This document shows, one piece after another, positions 16,136 to 59,399 of a DNA stretch of 64,000 nt. The translations under genes were made by a program, and so were the position numbers. Position 1 is the first letter of the stretch. Every line of letters begins with the position of its first letter. Below the pieces are notes generated by a model. That model was not told the DNA's origin. It worked only from the letters and a program-made list of their open reading frames with translations, and did no database searches. Origin of the DNA: a bacterium. Its GTDB lineage: Bacteria; Armatimonadota; Zipacnadia; Zipacnadales; UBA11051. The DNA is taken from assembly GCA_021372615.1 (NCBI GenBank), contig JAJFUB010000004.1, forward strand, positions 1 to 64,000. Reading direction: 5' to 3'.

Positions 16136-16225
16136 GCTGCCGGGGCGGAGTACCCTTCCCTTGGCTGCAACCGCGCACAGGCTGTCGAGGCCGCCATCGC
16201 CTCAGGGATGGGGCCGGAGGAAGCA

Positions 16226-19200
16226 ATGCAACTACTTGCCAGGCTATCAGTCCACAGGCCCGTCGTGGCGACAGTGCTCATCCTGACCCTCGTCGTGGTG
16301 GGGACCCTGTCGCTCACGAAGCTGGGCATTGACCGCTTTCCGAACGTGGACATCCCGGTCGTGACGATCACCACGATCCTCCCGGGCGCGACGCCCGAGG
16401 AGATGGACTCCCAGGTCACCGAGGAGATCGAGAAACAGGTCAACAGCATCTCGGGCATTGACACGCTGACCTCCACCTCGTCCGAGGGCGTCTCGGTCGT
16501 GATGATCAAGTTCCTGCTGGAGAAGGACGTGGACGTGGCCGAGCAGGAGGCGCGGTCCAAGGTGGACTTGGCAGTGCCCAACCTGCCCGAGGATGCCGAC
16601 AAGCCGACCGTGACGAAGATGGACGCCGGCGCCATCGCCGTCATGACCATCGCGCTGTCGGCCAAGACCGCCGACATTCGCGACCTGACGGAGTTCGCCG
16701 ACAAGCGCCTGCGGCCGCAGCTGGAGAACATCAGCGGCGTGGGCGAAGTCGAGATCATCGGCGGCCGGGCGCGCCAGGTTAACGTGCTGCTCGATGCCTA
16801 TGCGCTGCGCTCCTACGGCCTGACCGCCTCGGACATCGAGGCCGCGCTGCGGGTGCAGAACCTGCAGGTGCCGGGCGGCTCGACCGACCAGGGCAACCGC
16901 CGCATGTCGGTCCGCACCCAGGGCCGAACCACTGACATGGCCTCCCTGCGCGACCTCATCGTCACCGTGTGCAACGGCCAGCCGATTCATCTGAGCGACG
17001 TGGCGGACGTGGAGGACGCGGCCGAGGAGGCCGAGTCCATCGCCAACGTGAACGGTCAGCGCGCCGTCGTGCTGTCGGTCAAGAAGCAGAGCGGCGCCAA
17101 TGTGGTCGCCGTCGTGGACGCCGTCACCAAGCGCCTGGAGCAGGCCCAGTCCATGCTGCCCCAGGGCTACGAGACGCGCGTCGTGTCGGACAACTCGATC
17201 TTCATCCGCCGGTCGCTGGACGCGGTCAAGGAGCACCTGATCCTCGGCGCGATCTTCGCCTCGCTGGTCGTGCTGCTGTTCCTGGCCAACGGCCGCTCGG
17301 CCATCATCGCCGCCCTGTCCATCCCGGCCTCGCTGCTGGCGACCTTCACGCTCATCTCGCTGATGCACTTCACGCTCAACATGCTGACCCTGTTGGCGCT
17401 GACGCTGGCGGTGGGCATCGTCATTGACGATGGCGTCATCGTGCTCGAGAACATCTACCGCTATCTGCATGAGAAGGACATGTCGCCCCGCCAGGCGGCG
17501 CTGGACGCGACCAAGGAGATCGGTCTGGCTGTCCTGGCAACCACAGCCTCCCTGGTCGCGGTGTTCATGCCCATCGCCTTCATGCAGGGGATCGTGGGCC
17601 GGATGTTCCAGTCGTTCGGCCTGACCATGTCGTTCGCCATCATGGTGTCCCTGCTGGTGGCGTTCACGCTCACCCCCATGCTGTGCTCCAAGTGGCTGCG
17701 CAAGCCGCGGCCGCAGGCCGAGCGGGGGGACGACGGCGAGTCCGGCGCCACGCCGACGCGGGAGCGGCACGCGGGGCACAGCGAGAAGTCGGGCCTCTTC
17801 GGGCGCATCGAGGGCTTCTACGGGATGGTCCTCGACTGGTCCCTGCGGCACCGCTGGGCGGTGGTGCTGCTCGCCCTCGCGATCTTCGCCATGGTTGTAC
17901 CGCTGGGCAAGGGTGTGGGCTTCAGCTTCATCCCCGAGGACGATGAGAGCCGGTTTGTGGTCTCGGTACGGGCGCCGGAGGGGACGACCCTGGCGGCGAC
18001 CGAGACCCTCATGAACCGCATCGCCAGGGACATCCGCGCACTTCCGGAGGTCGCCTACACGGTCGTCACAGTGGCCGACGACAGGCAGCGCACGCAGAAC
18101 CTGGGCACTGTGGATGTCCACATGAACCAGGTTGAAGAGCGCAAGACTAAGACGACACAGCAACAGTTGATGACCCGGACACGCAAGGAGATCCTGACGC
18201 GCTATCCGGCCGAGCTGCGGTCCACCGTGTCGCCAGTCAGCCCGATCGGCGGCGGCGCCTCGGCTCTGGTGACGTACACCATCACCGGCCCGGACACCGA
18301 CCGCGTGATCGCGGCGGGGAACCGCATGGTCGCCGCGCTCAAGAAGGATCCGCTCGCGGCCGACGCGGACACGAGTTCCGTGGTGGGAAAGCCGGAGCTG
18401 GGCGTGACGGTAGACCGCCCCGCGGCGGCGGACCTGGGCCTGTCGGTCGCCGCGATCGCCTCGACGCTCCGCACGCTCGTGGCGGGCAAGAAGGTCTCAG
18501 ACTACGCCGACGGCGGGCACCTGTACGACGTGAACCTGCGGGCGCTGCCGGAGTACCGCCTGTCGAGGGACACGCTCTCGCTGTTCACGGTCAAGAGCGG
18601 CAGCCCCACCATCGGCACGGTGCCCCTGGACCAGGTCGTGAGCTACCGTGAGACCGGCGCGCCCTCGGTGGTGAGCCGCTACGGCCGCGCGCATTCGGCC
18701 ACGATCTCGACCAACCCGGCGCCAGGAGTATCGGAGTCGACGCTCCAGAAGCGCGTGGTCGCTCTGCTCCAGGAGCAGAACCTCGGCCCGCTCTACCGGG
18801 GCGCCTTCACCGGCCGCGCGGCCGAGCTGGCGCGGACGATGAGCGGCTTCCTGATATCTCTGGTTCTGGCCGTCGTCTTCATGTACCTGATCCTGTCGGC
18901 CCAGTTCGAGTCGTGGGTCTACCCGCTGGTCATTCTCAACGTGCTCCCGCTGACACTGCCGTTCGCGATGTTCTCGCTGTGGGTGCTGCGGGGTTCGCTC
19001 AACATCTTCTCGATGCTCGGCATCCTGGTGCTGTTCGGGATGGTCATGAAGAACGCCATCCTCCAGGTGGACCACACCAACGGGCTGCGCGAGACCGGGA
19101 TGGACCGCCGCCAGGCGATCCTCACCGCCTGTAAGGACAGGTTGCGCCCGATCCTGATGACGACGATTGCGTTTGTAGCCGGCATGGTGCCGCTGGCCCT

Positions 19201-19390
19201 GTCGAGCGGCACGGGCGCGGGCACGAACCGGGCCATGAGCCACATCATCATCGGCGGCCAGGTGCTATCCCTCGCCGTCACGCTCGTCGCCACGCCGGTC
19301 ATCTACTCGCTGGCCGACGACGTGCTCCAGTTCCTGGCGCGGCTGCGCAAGCACGTGGCCGAGCGCCGCGCGCAGCGGCAGATGGCCTAG
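16226..19390 (+). CDS. RND multidrug efflux transporter (AcrB/HAE1-like)
   Basis: This is a 1,054-aa proton-driven inner-membrane exporter of normal family length. It shows the expected two-fold layout: TM1 after RLSVHRP, a large periplasmic porter domain, TM2-6, TM7 after a charged linker (about residues 495-535), a second periplasmic domain, and TM8-12. The proton-relay pair is intact in TM4 (VGIVIDDGVIV, D401-D402). The start at 16226 is set by GGAGG 5 bases upstream; the in-frame ATG at 16208 lacks a ribosome site. The substrate is unknown. The 161-base gap to the TolC-type gene holds a structured repeat. Confidence 0.95.
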   Translation: MQLLARLSVHRPVVATVLILTLVVVGTLSLTKLGIDRFPNVDIPVVTITTILPGATPEEMDSQVTEEIEKQVNSISGIDTLTSTSSEGVSVVMIKFLLEKDVDVAEQEARSKVDLAVPNLPEDADKPTVTKMDAGAIAVMTIALSAKTADIRDLTEFADKRLRPQLENISGVGEVEIIGGRARQVNVLLDAYALRSYGLTASDIEAALRVQNLQVPGGSTDQGNRRMSVRTQGRTTDMASLRDLIVTVCNGQPIHLSDVADVEDAAEEAESIANVNGQRAVVLSVKKQSGANVVAVVDAVTKRLEQAQSMLPQGYETRVVSDNSIFIRRSLDAVKEHLILGAIFASLVVLLFLANGRSAIIAALSIPASLLATFTLISLMHFTLNMLTLLALTLAVGIVIDDGVIVLENIYRYLHEKDMSPRQAALDATKEIGLAVLATTASLVAVFMPIAFMQGIVGRMFQSFGLTMSFAIMVSLLVAFTLTPMLCSKWLRKPRPQAERGDDGESGATPTRERHAGHSEKSGLFGRIEGFYGMVLDWSLRHRWAVVLLALAIFAMVVPLGKGVGFSFIPEDDESRFVVSVRAPEGTTLAATETLMNRIARDIRALPEVAYTVVTVADDRQRTQNLGTVDVHMNQVEERKTKTTQQQLMTRTRKEILTRYPAELRSTVSPVSPIGGGASALVTYTITGPDTDRVIAAGNRMVAALKKDPLAADADTSSVVGKPELGVTVDRPAAADLGLSVAAIASTLRTLVAGKKVSDYADGGHLYDVNLRALPEYRLSRDTLSLFTVKSGSPTIGTVPLDQVVSYRETGAPSVVSRYGRAHSATISTNPAPGVSESTLQKRVVALLQEQNLGPLYRGAFTGRAAELARTMSGFLISLVLAVVFMYLILSAQFESWVYPLVILNVLPLTLPFAMFSLWVLRGSLNIFSMLGILVLFGMVMKNAILQVDHTNGLRETGMDRRQAILTACKDRLRPILMTTIAFVAGMVPLALSSGTGAGTNRAMSHIIIGGQVLSLAVTLVATPVIYSLADDVLQFLARLRKHVAERRAQRQMA

Positions 19391-19432
19391 ACGCTGACTT
19401 GGGTCAGCTCGCGCGATAGCGACAGACAGGTC

Positions 19433-19522
19433 GTGGGTGTGGCGGTGAGGTCGCGCAGCGACCTCCGTGCGACGGGCCCCACGACCGGCGGCGGGGCCCG
19501 CCGCACACGACGCGGCACCCAC
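19433..19522 (+). repeat. Y-shaped 90-nt repeat (family C), intact copy
   Basis: An outer stem (GTGGGTGTGGCGG with the end of the right arm) encloses a side hairpin GAGGTCGC-GCA-GCGACCTC (19447-19465). An inner stem follows (19467-19480 with 19493-19506, one mismatch) around a 12-nt loop. The 30-nt right arm (19493-19522) is the exact reverse complement of 58292-58321. It lies between the RND and TolC-type genes, inside the predicted operon. Confidence 0.8.
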
Positions 19523-19551
19523 CGCCCTTACCTCGAAAGCAGGAAGACAAT

Positions 19552-20901
19552 ATGTGCAGTGAATGTTGTCAAGCAGCCAGAGCGTTCCGGCCAGGGGCTC
19601 TGCTGGCGACAGGCATGTTGACATGCTTCCTCTGGCTGGCCTCCCTCCCGGCGCGGGCGGAAGAGACCCCCGCGCCTGCTCCCACGGCCCTGACGCTGAC
19701 CCCGGCAGACGCCGCCGACCTGGCACTCCGCAACAGCCTGCAGTTGCAGCGCGACGCGAAGGCCCTGGAGCAGGCGGAGGCTCGTCTGCGGCAGGCCCGG
19801 GCCCTGGGGAAGTTCACCTCGCAAGCCAGCGCCTCGGCCTCACTCACGATGCCGACGACGCCCTACGTGGACAGCTTCAACCATCAGTTCCGCGTCTCGC
19901 TGAGCAAGCCCGTGTACACCGGCCACCGCCTGGAGCTGCAGAGCGCCCTGGCGCGCCGCGGGATCGAGGCCGCCGGCGCACGCGCGGCGGTGACATCGAG
20001 TGAGACGGCGCAGGCCGCGCGGACGCTGTGCTACAACATCCTGCGCCTCGACATGCTGGCCAACGTGGCCAACCAACGCGCCACCGCCGTCGCTGAGCAC
20101 CTGCGCATCACCCGCGCCATGGAAGCCGACGGCACCGTGCCGCTGTTCGAGGTCGTGCAGGCCGAGACCGAGCTGGCCAAGGCCAAGGGTGACATCATCG
20201 CCGCCCAGACGGCGACGCAACTGGCCCGCGCGACGCTCGCCAACCTGCTGGTGCTACCCCAGACCTGCGCCTTGAGCGTGCAGGAGGGAGTGCCGCTGCC
20301 GGAGCCGGAGGGGAAGCTGACCGACCTGATCGCCCGCGGCCTGGGACAGCGCCCCGAGCTGGCGCTGGCCGAGCGCCAGCTCAAGGTCGCCGAGGCCAAC
20401 CTCGAACTCACGCGCCAGAGCACCAACCCCCGCCTGGACATGGTGGCCCAGCTCAACCAACAGACGCAGACAAGTGCCGCCGAGCCAGTGAACTGGGTCG
20501 TGGGCCTGTCCCTGACCAAGCCCCTGTCCGATGGCGGGTTGCGCCGCGCCCAAGTGGCGGAGCAGGCCGCCGTCGTCGCCGATGTGAAGCTGCAGATTGA
20601 GGACCTCAGGCAGCAGATCGCCCTGGAGATCAACGAGGCTTCCCTGGCGCTCCACCAGGCCCGCGAGCAACTGACGGTCGCCGAAGCCGGCGAGGTCAAC
20701 GCCCGCGAGCGGCTGCGCATGGCTGAGGTGCGCTACGCGGCTGGCCTGTCCATCGGTGTCGAAGTACTGGACGCCCAGACCGCCTTCGCCGCGGCGCAGA
20801 CGGCGACGGTCAACGCCCGCTACGACGTCCAGACCTCCGTCGTGCGCCTGCGCAAGGCCGTGGGCGACCTGGACAGCCAACTCGCCGCGCCCCCTGAGTA
20901 G
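19552..20901 (+). CDS. TolC-family outer-membrane efflux channel
   Basis: This 449-aa protein has a signal peptide (ending LPARA, about residue 36) and two homologous halves rich in long Ala/Gln/Glu helices. The repeat seams are TLTPADAADLALRNSLQLQRDAKALEQAEARLRQAR and GLGQRPELALAERQLKVAEANLELTRQ. This is the structure of outer-membrane factors that form trimeric channels docking onto RND/MFP complexes. AGGAAG precedes the ATG by about 5 bases. Its product should complete the tripartite pump encoded just upstream. The structured repeat between it and the RND gene may separate or modulate its expression. Confidence 0.92.
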   Translation: MCSECCQAARAFRPGALLATGMLTCFLWLASLPARAEETPAPAPTALTLTPADAADLALRNSLQLQRDAKALEQAEARLRQARALGKFTSQASASASLTMPTTPYVDSFNHQFRVSLSKPVYTGHRLELQSALARRGIEAAGARAAVTSSETAQAARTLCYNILRLDMLANVANQRATAVAEHLRITRAMEADGTVPLFEVVQAETELAKAKGDIIAAQTATQLARATLANLLVLPQTCALSVQEGVPLPEPEGKLTDLIARGLGQRPELALAERQLKVAEANLELTRQSTNPRLDMVAQLNQQTQTSAAEPVNWVVGLSLTKPLSDGGLRRAQVAEQAAVVADVKLQIEDLRQQIALEINEASLALHQAREQLTVAEAGEVNARERLRMAEVRYAAGLSIGVEVLDAQTAFAAAQTATVNARYDVQTSVVRLRKAVGDLDSQLAAPPE

Positions 20902-56830: not shown

Positions 56831-58216
56831 ATGTCTTGTGACCCGACGCTTCCCAGCAGCTACGATGTGCGCCGCTTCGGCGCCCTGGGCGATGGCCAGA
56901 CCCTCACCACGGCCGCCCTGCAGCAAGCCCTGGACACCTGTGCGGCCGACGGTGGCGGCACGGTGGTCGTGCCCGCCGGCACGTACCTCACCGGCACGCT
57001 CTACCTGAGGAGCCATGTGACGCTGCACCTGTGCGCCGGCGCCACCCTCCTGGGCAGCCCCCGGCCGGAAGACTACAACCCCGACGACGTCTTCCCCGAG
57101 AACCGCGTCTTCGCGATCGAGAAGGTCTCGGGCGCCCACCTCATCATTGCCTATCGCCAGGAGCATGTGGCGATCACCGGCGAGGGCACCATTGACGGCA
57201 ACAGCGCCGCGTTCTTCGAGGCGCTGCCGGAAGAGGAGATCACGCGCTCGTATCGCCGCAAGAGCCGCAACTTCCCCTTCCGCGGCTGGCGCCCGGGCCA
57301 GATGGTCTTCTTCTGCCGCTGCACTGATGTCGCCGTGCGCGACGTCACGCTGCGCAACGCGCCGTACTGGACGCTGTTCCTGCACGGCTGCCGCTGGGTG
57401 CAAGTGCGCGGACTGCACATCACCAACCCGCCTCAGACCGCCAACGGCGACGGGATAGACCTGGACTGCTGCCAGGAGGTTACGGTCAGCGACTGCCTGA
57501 TCGAGTCAGGCGATGACTGCATCACCTTGCGCGCCAACGCCGCCCCGCTGGGCGAGGCAGCCCAGGACTGCGCGAACGTAGTCGTGACCAACTGCGTGCT
57601 CAGCACGCCGTGCAACGCCATGCGCATCGGCGTGGGCGACGGGGTCGTGCGCGACTGCACCTGCAGCAACATCATCATCAAGGAGGCCCGCACGGGGCTG
57701 AGCATCGTCGCCTGCTACTCGGAGCGCTCCGCCCACGGTGCGCGCCTGGAGAACCTGCACTTCGCGCACTGCGTCATGGACACCATGATGCCGATCAACC
57801 TGCAACTGGGGCCACACGCCAAGCCGCCGGCCACGATCCGCAACCTGAGCTTCTCCCACTTCCATCTGCTGGCCCGGCAGGGCTGCTACTTCGGCGGCAA
57901 CCCCGGCCACCCGGTCCAGGACCTGCGCCTGCACGAAGTGGACCTGCGCCTGACCGAGGGCGACGTCAACCCGAGCTTCCAGGCCGCGCAGGCCCATCCG
58001 GGCGGCGGCGCCAACGGCATCCCCTCGGGCCTGCTCGCGAGCTACGTGGACGGGCTACGGGTGGACGGTCTGCGGGTGCGCTGGGAGGACGACGCCGTCG
58101 CGGACTGGCAGTACGCGGCCGAGATCGAGCATAGCACGAACGTAGCGTTGGAGCGCGTCGAGGCCACCCCGCCCCCGCACTTCGCCGAGCGGGACGCTGT
58201 GCGCTACGAGGGGTAG
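56831..58216 (+). CDS. Glycoside hydrolase family 28-like protein
   Basis: This 461-aa parallel beta-helix protein is of the polygalacturonase/rhamnogalacturonase type. GH28 features are the N terminus YDVRRFGALGDGQTLTTAALQQALD, the catalytic region NGDGIDLD (N205-D210) and GDDC (D228-D229). The conserved GHG histidine loop is replaced by PCNAMRIG, seen in divergent GH28-like enzymes, so specificity is uncertain. There is no signal peptide, unlike its neighbours, which suggests action on imported oligosaccharides in the cytoplasm or a missed export route. GGAG lies 6 bases before the ATG. The gene ends at a strong hairpin terminator at 58225-58252. Confidence 0.88.
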   Translation: MSCDPTLPSSYDVRRFGALGDGQTLTTAALQQALDTCAADGGGTVVVPAGTYLTGTLYLRSHVTLHLCAGATLLGSPRPEDYNPDDVFPENRVFAIEKVSGAHLIIAYRQEHVAITGEGTIDGNSAAFFEALPEEEITRSYRRKSRNFPFRGWRPGQMVFFCRCTDVAVRDVTLRNAPYWTLFLHGCRWVQVRGLHITNPPQTANGDGIDLDCCQEVTVSDCLIESGDDCITLRANAAPLGEAAQDCANVVVTNCVLSTPCNAMRIGVGDGVVRDCTCSNIIIKEARTGLSIVACYSERSAHGARLENLHFAHCVMDTMMPINLQLGPHAKPPATIRNLSFSHFHLLARQGCYFGGNPGHPVQDLRLHEVDLRLTEGDVNPSFQAAQAHPGGGANGIPSGLLASYVDGLRVDGLRVRWEDDAVADWQYAAEIEHSTNVALERVEATPPPHFAERDAVRYEG

Positions 58217-58252: not shown

Positions 58253-58291
58253 CCCCGTGTACTGAGGTTTGTGCAAGTAGGGGAAGAGGCC

Positions 58292-58381
58292 GTGGGTGCC
58301 GCGTCGTGTGCGGCGGGCCCCACGGCTGGCGGCGGGGCCCGCCGCACACGTGAGAGCGCAAGCGGTCTCGGCGGCACCCGC
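58292..58381 (-). repeat. Y-shaped 90-nt repeat (family C), intact inverted copy
   Basis: This is the same element as 19433-19522 in opposite orientation. A perfect 17-bp inner stem (58305-58321 with 58334-58350) has a 12-nt loop. A side hairpin (58351-58370, 7 of 8 pairs) and an outer stem (58292-58302 with 58371-58381, one wobble) complete the Y. It lies between the convergent GH28-like and GMP-synthase-like genes. Confidence 0.8.
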
Positions 58382-58433
58382 CGCCTGAGCGTTTCCTCGC
58401 ATACGCCGACATCAGTAGGTCGCCACAGCGCGG

Positions 58434-59399
58434 CTACACGACCTCCATGGTGGAGGGCGGCTTGGTGGCGATGTTGTAGGTGACGCTGACCACGCCGGGG
58501 ACCTCGCCCGTCAGGCGCGCGCTGAGGCGCTCCAGTGTCTCCCACGGCAATCGCGTCGGGCGCGCGGTGCGCGCGTCCGTGCTGTCCCAGCAGCGCACCT
58601 CGATCTGCAGCCCGAAGTCACGCTCCCCCGCGCGCATCCCCGTGACCCGGTCCTCGTGCAGGATCGCCATGTACTGGAAGGCCTTCACGCCGGCCAGTTC
58701 CTCTTCGGTGATGCTCGTCGCCTGCCGGACCAGCGCCAGCCGTTCCGCCGTCGCTTCCCCGACGATGCGGGCCGCGAGGGCAGGCCCGGGGAACGGCATG
58801 CGGTTATACACGGACTCGGGTAACCCCAGCCCCTGGGCCAGCTTCCGCACCCCATCCTTGCGCAGTTGGACGATGGGCTCGAGGATCTCGTAGCCGAAGG
58901 CCTGCTGGGGGTCAATCCCCAGTTGGGCGAACACATTGTGTTGCCGCTTGATGCCCGCTACGGTCTCATCCACGTCCGTGAGGATCGTGCCCTGCAGCAA
59001 GTGCCGGGCGCCGCTGGCCCGGACCAGGTCGCCGAAGACATCGCGGTAGAAGGTCTGCGTCACGGCCTCCCGCTTGGCCTCCGGGTCCGTCACCCCCCTC
59101 AGGGCCGTCAGGAATTTGTCGCGGGCATCAATCAGCTCCACACGCACACCCAGGTCCGCGAACAGCCGCACGATGCGCTCCGGCTCGCCCTCGCGCATCA
59201 GCGCATTGTCTATGAGGTACGTCTTCAGACGGTCCCCCAGGGCCCGATGCCCCAGCATCGTCACCACCGACGAATCCACGCCCCCGGACAGTGCATTGAC
59301 GGCCAGACCGGAGCCGACCGCGGCTGAGATGCTGGCCGCTTGCGTGGCGATGAACTTCTCGGGGTTGAGGTCCTGCGCTGTGATCTCCTGGATACTCAC
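58434..59399 (-). CDS. guaA: Stand-alone GMP synthase-type ATP pyrophosphatase
   Basis: This 321-aa cytoplasmic protein corresponds to the ATP-PPase plus dimerisation half of GMP synthase, which converts XMP to GMP using ammonia. The P-loop SGGVDSSV (38-45) is intact, as are LLQGTI, IKRQHNV, RKDGVRKLAQGLGLP and RMPFPGPAL. The C terminus reads KPPSTMEVV where usual enzymes end KPPATIEWE. The N-terminal glutamine amidotransferase domain is absent, as in archaeal split enzymes, and no GATase gene is in the window. The GTG at 59399 is chosen because GGAGGGAG and GAGG lie upstream; an ATG at 59420 would add 7 residues without a ribosome site. A related nucleotide-modifying PPase role remains possible. 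Confidence 0.85.
   Translation of the reverse strand: MSIQEITAQDLNPEKFIATQAASISAAVGSGLAVNALSGGVDSSVVTMLGHRALGDRLKTYLIDNALMREGEPERIVRLFADLGVRVELIDARDKFLTALRGVTDPEAKREAVTQTFYRDVFGDLVRASGARHLLQGTILTDVDETVAGIKRQHNVFAQLGIDPQQAFGYEILEPIVQLRKDGVRKLAQGLGLPESVYNRMPFPGPALAARIVGEATAERLALVRQATSITEEELAGVKAFQYMAILHEDRVTGMRAGERDFGLQIEVRCWDSTDARTARPTRLPWETLERLSARLTGEVPGVVSVTYNIATKPPSTMEVV

Follow-up and report, generated by a model that had tools for sequence, protein, structure and literature searches.

A dispersed inverted hairpin repeat flanking a RAYT-type transposase gene: a probable relative of bacterial REP/REPIN elements

The palindromic repeat that lies inside an efflux operon of the window (the whole 64,000-nucleotide stretch of DNA analysed here) is best read as a new and unusual relative of the bacterial REP/REPIN elements, rather than as a dedicated efflux switch. 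It is very probably a REPIN-like single-strand transposon, miniature and non-autonomous; a RAYT-type Y1/HUH tyrosine transposase encoded elsewhere in the genome most likely both recognises it and multiplies it in trans. On the best reading, the element works like the REP/REPINs and is probably related to them, as a REPIN/REPtron lineage without GTAG in an uncultured, GC-rich order; RAYT/REPIN-type repeats would thereby be extended to that order. Moreover, three transposase-hairpin pairs, in which the foot motif and the contact residues have apparently changed together, provide a natural test set for the choice of hairpins by HUH enzymes. The case is also a warning that hairpins of this sort in operons should not be taken for dedicated regulators.

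Anatomy of the repeat unit

Both 90-nt copies of the repeat (19433-19522 and 58292-58381) were confirmed, and they are equal in length when placed in matched orientation. As the preliminary description had it, a 30-nt arm, GGGGCCCGCCGCACACGACGCGGCACCCAC, is common to both copies, stands at offset 60 in each, and is identical at 30/30 positions. The side hairpin is likewise present and foldable in both, its sequences differing and copy two having one C-C mismatch, and the compensatory change is borne out, the fourth side-hairpin pair being G-C in one copy and A-T in the other. Folded as RNA (-64.5 and -70.9 kcal/mol), both copies take the shape of a long foldback that bears a side hairpin. While the copies are thus real, a conserved 90-nt Y does not describe the conserved unit, which is larger and modular. 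When copies are compared side by side, the unit consists of two inverted hairpins of ~40 nt, L and R, placed head to head. The hairpin pair of each copy, the outer inverted arms that copy two also carries, and the host genes of copy one are as follows.

16208-19390, plus strand: AcrB-type RND pump, host gene upstream of copy one, given for context (PF00873, 898.9 bits)
19429-19486, plus strand: copy one, half with the side hairpin, comprising outer stem GGTCGTGGG/CCCACGACC, internal loop and side hairpin in the loop (sequence, family alignment and pairing, own fold of the half)
19447-19465, plus strand: copy one, side hairpin GAGGTCGC-GCA-GCGACCTC (sequence, fold)
19487-19526, minus strand: copy one, plain half-hairpin, inverted (covariance model match G000:C4:19487-19526, 59.1 bits, E 8.6e-10)
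19552-20901, plus strand: OEP/TolC-type channel, host gene downstream of copy one, given for context (PF02321, 154.2 bits)
58261-58287, plus strand: copy two, left outer arm ACTGAGGTTTGTGCAAGTAGGGGAAGA (arm pattern, 0 mismatches)
58288-58327, plus strand: copy two, plain half-hairpin, CCGT base type (covariance model match, 64.4 bits, E 4.7e-11)
58328-58385, minus strand: copy two, half with the side hairpin, GGC base type (sequence, L014 row of the dimer table)
58351-58369, minus strand: copy two, side hairpin GAGACCGC-TT-GCGCTCTC (sequence, fold)
58386-58416, minus strand: copy two, right outer arm, inverted, reading ACTGATGTCGGCGTATGCGAGGAAACGCTCA on the minus strand (sequence; arm type as in L007, L013 and L090)

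Each half has a variable 6-bp base followed by GGG/CCC; a lone T then stands opposite GGGC, and beyond it a 5-bp inner stem carries the loop GTCGTGT. In G023, another genome of the order, GGGG takes the place of GGGC in the internal loop facing T. The letters of the outer and inner stems are variable, and the GGG-T/GGG[C or G] internal loop is conserved, as is, in most cases, the loop GTCGT. Units are paired in inverted orientation: 11 complete dimers were parsed from G023 and the host genome (G000), most with an L-R linker of 0-13 nt. In G000, the base of L is often CCGT/ACGG and that of R often GGC/GCC. A side hairpin in one half can replace part of the loop, and this accounts for the Y shape seen earlier. 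In G020, G016, and one copy of G031, the inner stem is longer and of other sequence, the T/GGGG internal loop is retained, and the loop starts with G[T/C]CGT. A second type of hairpin in G020 has a side hairpin, GCGACCGC-AG-GCGGTCGC, that is comparable to GAGACCGC-TT-GCGGTCTC of G000. The hairpin unit also occurs in BIME-like tandem arrays, one in G020 (L171:1327-1369 and neighbours) and one in G023 (L069:1328-1480, at a spacing of ~54-57 nt).

Outer inverted arms of ~27-31 nt, starting with ACTGAGG, enclose a subset of the copies; many hairpins are armless, and related arms also occur in G023 and G031. Wherever else a genuine arm copy occurs, it has next to it either a hairpin, whole or as a remnant, or the end of a contig. 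One copy, G000:C27:32611-32673, retains both arms with the hairpin reduced to a remnant, which suggests that arms and hairpins form one unit, from which the hairpins can drop out. The arms, their related form in the two other genomes, and this arms-only copy would also suit a MITE with terminal inverted repeats (ACTGAGG...CCTCAGT), moved by an arm-reading DDE transposase and carrying the hairpins as internal cargo. Such an origin is quite improbable, given that many copies have hairpins without arms, that no target duplication was seen by eye at the ends inspected, and that the gene flanked by the repeat encodes a Y1/HUH rather than a DDE transposase. The combination that defines a TIR-type MITE, terminal inverted repeats in all copies together with target-site duplication, was not found.

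At four loci, L219:1500 (G000:C27:32611), L051, L053, and L234, the TGA of ACTGAGG apparently ends the upstream ORF in frame, as its stop codon, which hints at insertion at gene ends. That the arm supplies the stop codon of its host gene is true of some copies and is no general rule.

Copy number, pairing and covariation

The host genome is a 6.41-Mb draft in 171 contigs, in which copy one as a query gave 67 BLAST matches. Chance is far from explaining the repeat: a 17-mer core had 103 matches at up to 2 mismatches, and its reversal, as a control, had 14. A covariance-model search, the check put forward with the preliminary description, found 90 half-hairpins in G000. The model was built from 55 half-hairpins, and 90 is to be taken as a count and not as an independent test, because some of the matches had trained the model. 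Repeats at contig ends are the usual sign of a repeat that breaks the assembly. At least 20 copies sit at contig ends of the G000 draft, ends for which the repeat thus accounts, and the copy count is therefore a minimum.

Among 41 genomes of the order, covariance model matches were found in G000 (90), G023 (132), G020 (20), G031 (2), G017 (2), and G016 (1), a patchy presence in six genomes; six genomes of the family of G000 had none. At a stricter threshold of 1e-4, only 4 of 291 genomes of the phylum had matches. Rfam 15 gave no gathering-level match in the window, and nothing relevant at E up to 1 for four repeat-bearing loci. Simple ORF calling is unreliable at the GC content of G000, and a classification of copies as intergenic or intragenic was left out.

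One contig of a Chloroflexi-labelled MAG, JAHJIN010000302.1 (L090), carries the repeat directly upstream of a prepilin-like gene that resembles those of G000. In a wider contig scan the repeat was on this contig only, and since the other contigs of the MAG are without it, the contig is probably a stray or mis-binned one from a relative. A stretch of ~170-200 nt, which recurs at ~60 places in G000 with 72-88% DNA identity (L090:580-787 among them), is apparently the 5' end of a large prepilin-like gene family.

The preliminary description had suggested selection on structure. In 55 distinct halves, evaluated on a structure that was itself derived from these sequences, 95.6% of paired cells were paired versus 79.0% after shuffling, and double-change cells numbered 125 versus 31; slid controls dropped to 33-59% paired. 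In the 11 dimers, base-stem letters paired within a half at 0.89 and across halves at 0.66. Because of these pairing, double-change, and within- versus across-half results, the hairpin half is taken as the conserved structure. The covariation thus speaks for pairing inside each half, and not for the whole 90-nt Y alone; the Y can pair as well because the two halves are near-identical. The whole foldback is 6-8 kcal/mol more stable as RNA than two separate halves, and with such an energy gap both forms could exist. The ~90 half-copies, together with two further genomes, strongly support the view that the structure is selected or mechanistically maintained.

Near-perfect palindromes are a classic substrate of quasi-palindrome correction, in which template switching within a hairpin rewrites one arm from the other. 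Since the repeats are near-perfect palindromes whose stem letters are free while the pairing is kept, this process could contribute to the covariation, and may act jointly with mobilisation by the RAYT. It is unlikely, on the other hand, that the covariation is simply a mutational by-product of an inert, unselected repeat: the internal-loop T, GGG[CG], the loop GTCGT, and the foot motif are fixed though largely unpaired, and the architecture is kept across three genera, each with its own RAYT.

The RAYT gene, the foot motif and a proposed mechanism

G000 has seven Y1-transposase genes. That at G000:C160:19552-19869, a RAYT gene, has the repeat on both sides (loci L140/L173), and the flanks fetched for the other six (up to 1.5 kb) contain none. 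At genome-average density, the presence of at least five halves in 3.5 kb at this gene has a Poisson P of ~2e-9. The nearest RAYT homologs in G023 (L175) and G020 (L176) both have hairpins on either side that share this architecture, with stems particular to each genome. No such flanking hairpins turned up at ~35 other Y1/RAYT loci in a structural scan whose background is ~1 match per Mb in shuffled sequence. Across 30 RAYT loci, hairpin flanking is associated with the clade at a Fisher P of 2.5e-4, with the clade label picked after the data were seen. The three RAYTs with flanking hairpins group in a single clade (93/74), nested in a 100/99 clade that also holds the RAYTs of G017. The latter are sister to the hairpin clade, and the one examined has a different flanking repeat, which counts against the RAYT as the mover. 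At G017:C237 (L174:1050-1458 and 1975-2038), the repeat on either side of this RAYT gene belongs to a different palindromic family, CCACAGCCGCAGGCCT...AGTAGTCGCAGCCCT, which is probably its REP.

The G000 RAYT matches PF01797 above the cut-off. Its best NCBIfam family is REP_Tyr_transpos (NF047646), at 66.3 bits, a score under the cut-off of 80 that counts against the REPIN reading. The DHxH, WQ, and Y..NP motifs are kept in the RAYT alignment, and an AlphaFold model (pLDDT 89.6, pTM 0.84) has as its best PDB match 4er8, a RAYT bound to a REP hairpin (E 2.7e-8). The gene is present once in the draft, and no full-length IS copies of it were seen.

The 5' foot of the hairpins reads CAGG in G000, ATGG in G023, and CCAG in G020. 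The hairpins of all three genomes lack the canonical GT[AG]G; this counts against the REPIN reading, and the element is for that reason not classed as a canonical GTAG REP. W94, Q95, E100, H101, and R104 are named where the E. coli contacts with GTAG are discussed, and some groups have D in place of E100 (PMC6006769). In almost every other RAYT of the order, the positions W+6 and W+10 hold D/E and R; in the hairpin clade they hold A/V/V and K/C/D, the motif in G000 being WQRGFDARIMK. This change of contact residues fits a changed foot. Beside those other RAYTs, canonical GT[AG]G hairpins show no clear enrichment, so the loss of the residues is suggestive only.

The operon context was as first described, with HlyD, AcrB-type RND, repeat, and TolC-type OEP in that order. 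The idea that the repeat alters channel expression is not supported in the form of a dedicated efflux RNA switch: copy two lies between two unrelated convergent genes, one GH28-like (ending at 58216) and one GMP-synthase-like (ending at 58434), the family is dispersed, and it flanks a RAYT in three genomes. More broadly, a cis-acting or free structured RNA might be selected site by site, the Y fold in the mRNA tuning the TolC-type gene through attenuation, mRNA stabilisation, or an RNase barrier. The high stability of the folds as RNA (-64.5 to -74.5 kcal/mol), the position of copy one between two genes of one operon, and the conserved pairing would all agree with this. We nonetheless judge it very unlikely, as ~90 halves occupy dispersed loci, convergent gene gaps included, the repeat flanks a transposase in three genomes, Rfam has no match, no promoter- or terminator-like site was found near copy one (19300-19700), and an inverted pair folds alike on both strands. 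A side effect of copy one on the RND-OEP mRNA is possible.

For the REPIN-type transposon that we favour, the steps can be modelled on the biochemistry of TnpA-REP and IS200/IS605 (PMC8266576). In single-stranded DNA, each half would fold into a hairpin; the transposase would read foot, internal loop, and loop, cleave beside the foot via a 5'-phosphotyrosine link, and complete excision and insertion (strand transfer) without target duplication. Copy one would then be a passenger after the RND stop codon, co-transcribed and folding in the mRNA. A site after a stop codon is a usual habitat of REPs. Further points also count against this reading. The outer arms of some copies are unusual for REPINs, and neither movement nor an empty site was seen: the RND homologs in the family are only 28-35% identical, too distant for an orthologous gap to be compared with copy one.

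Comparison with known systems

The closest likeness is to the REP/REPINs and REPtrons of E. coli and Pseudomonas (TnpA-REP/RAYT groups 2 and 3; PMC3116915, PMC6006769, PMC8266576), which are also short, dispersed palindromic units in inverted pairs. The E. coli group-2 REPs likewise have a stem interrupted by an unpaired zone, and the REPtrons share the placing of the units on both sides of a RAYT gene, the HUH (DHxH), WQ, and Y..NP motifs, and a 4er8-like fold. However, the foot is CAGG, ATGG, or CCAG here and GT[AG]G there, and the present element has distinct L and R halves, a side hairpin inserted in the loop, and outer inverted arms in some copies. At the GTAG-contact positions W+6 and W+10, the E. 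coli RAYT has an acid and an arginine, whereas A/V and K/C/D are found here.

TIRtrons with their TIRYT repeats (PMC3733652) resemble the element in having a RAYT-like gene flanked by non-GTAG repeats and a genomic family in dimers; here, one hairpin architecture is common to several genera, with conserved loop and internal-loop letters. The CGTC-tagged REPs (PMC3733652) share palindromic dimers and the letters CGTC, but there CGTC is an unpaired end tag, whereas in G000 and G023 it belongs to the hairpin loop, at its border with the inner stem. A RAYT flanked by the repeat, reported lacking for CGTC REPs (PMC3733652), is present here.

With IS200/IS605 (IS608, ISDra2), the element has in common the Y1/HUH fold, hairpin ends with an unpaired position, and the expected lack of target duplication. 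It differs in that its hairpins stand in inverted pairs, and in that the RAYT gene occurs once in the draft, with no full-length IS copies seen. A further proposal, for and against which the case seems to us about evenly balanced, is that a RAYT lineage without GTAG recognition reads an asymmetric hairpin pair (distinct L and R, a side hairpin in the loop, and the conserved T/GGG[CG] internal loop), and that enzyme and hairpin co-evolve from family to family within one uncultured order. Such a lineage would stand between the ends of IS200/IS605 and the canonical REPINs.
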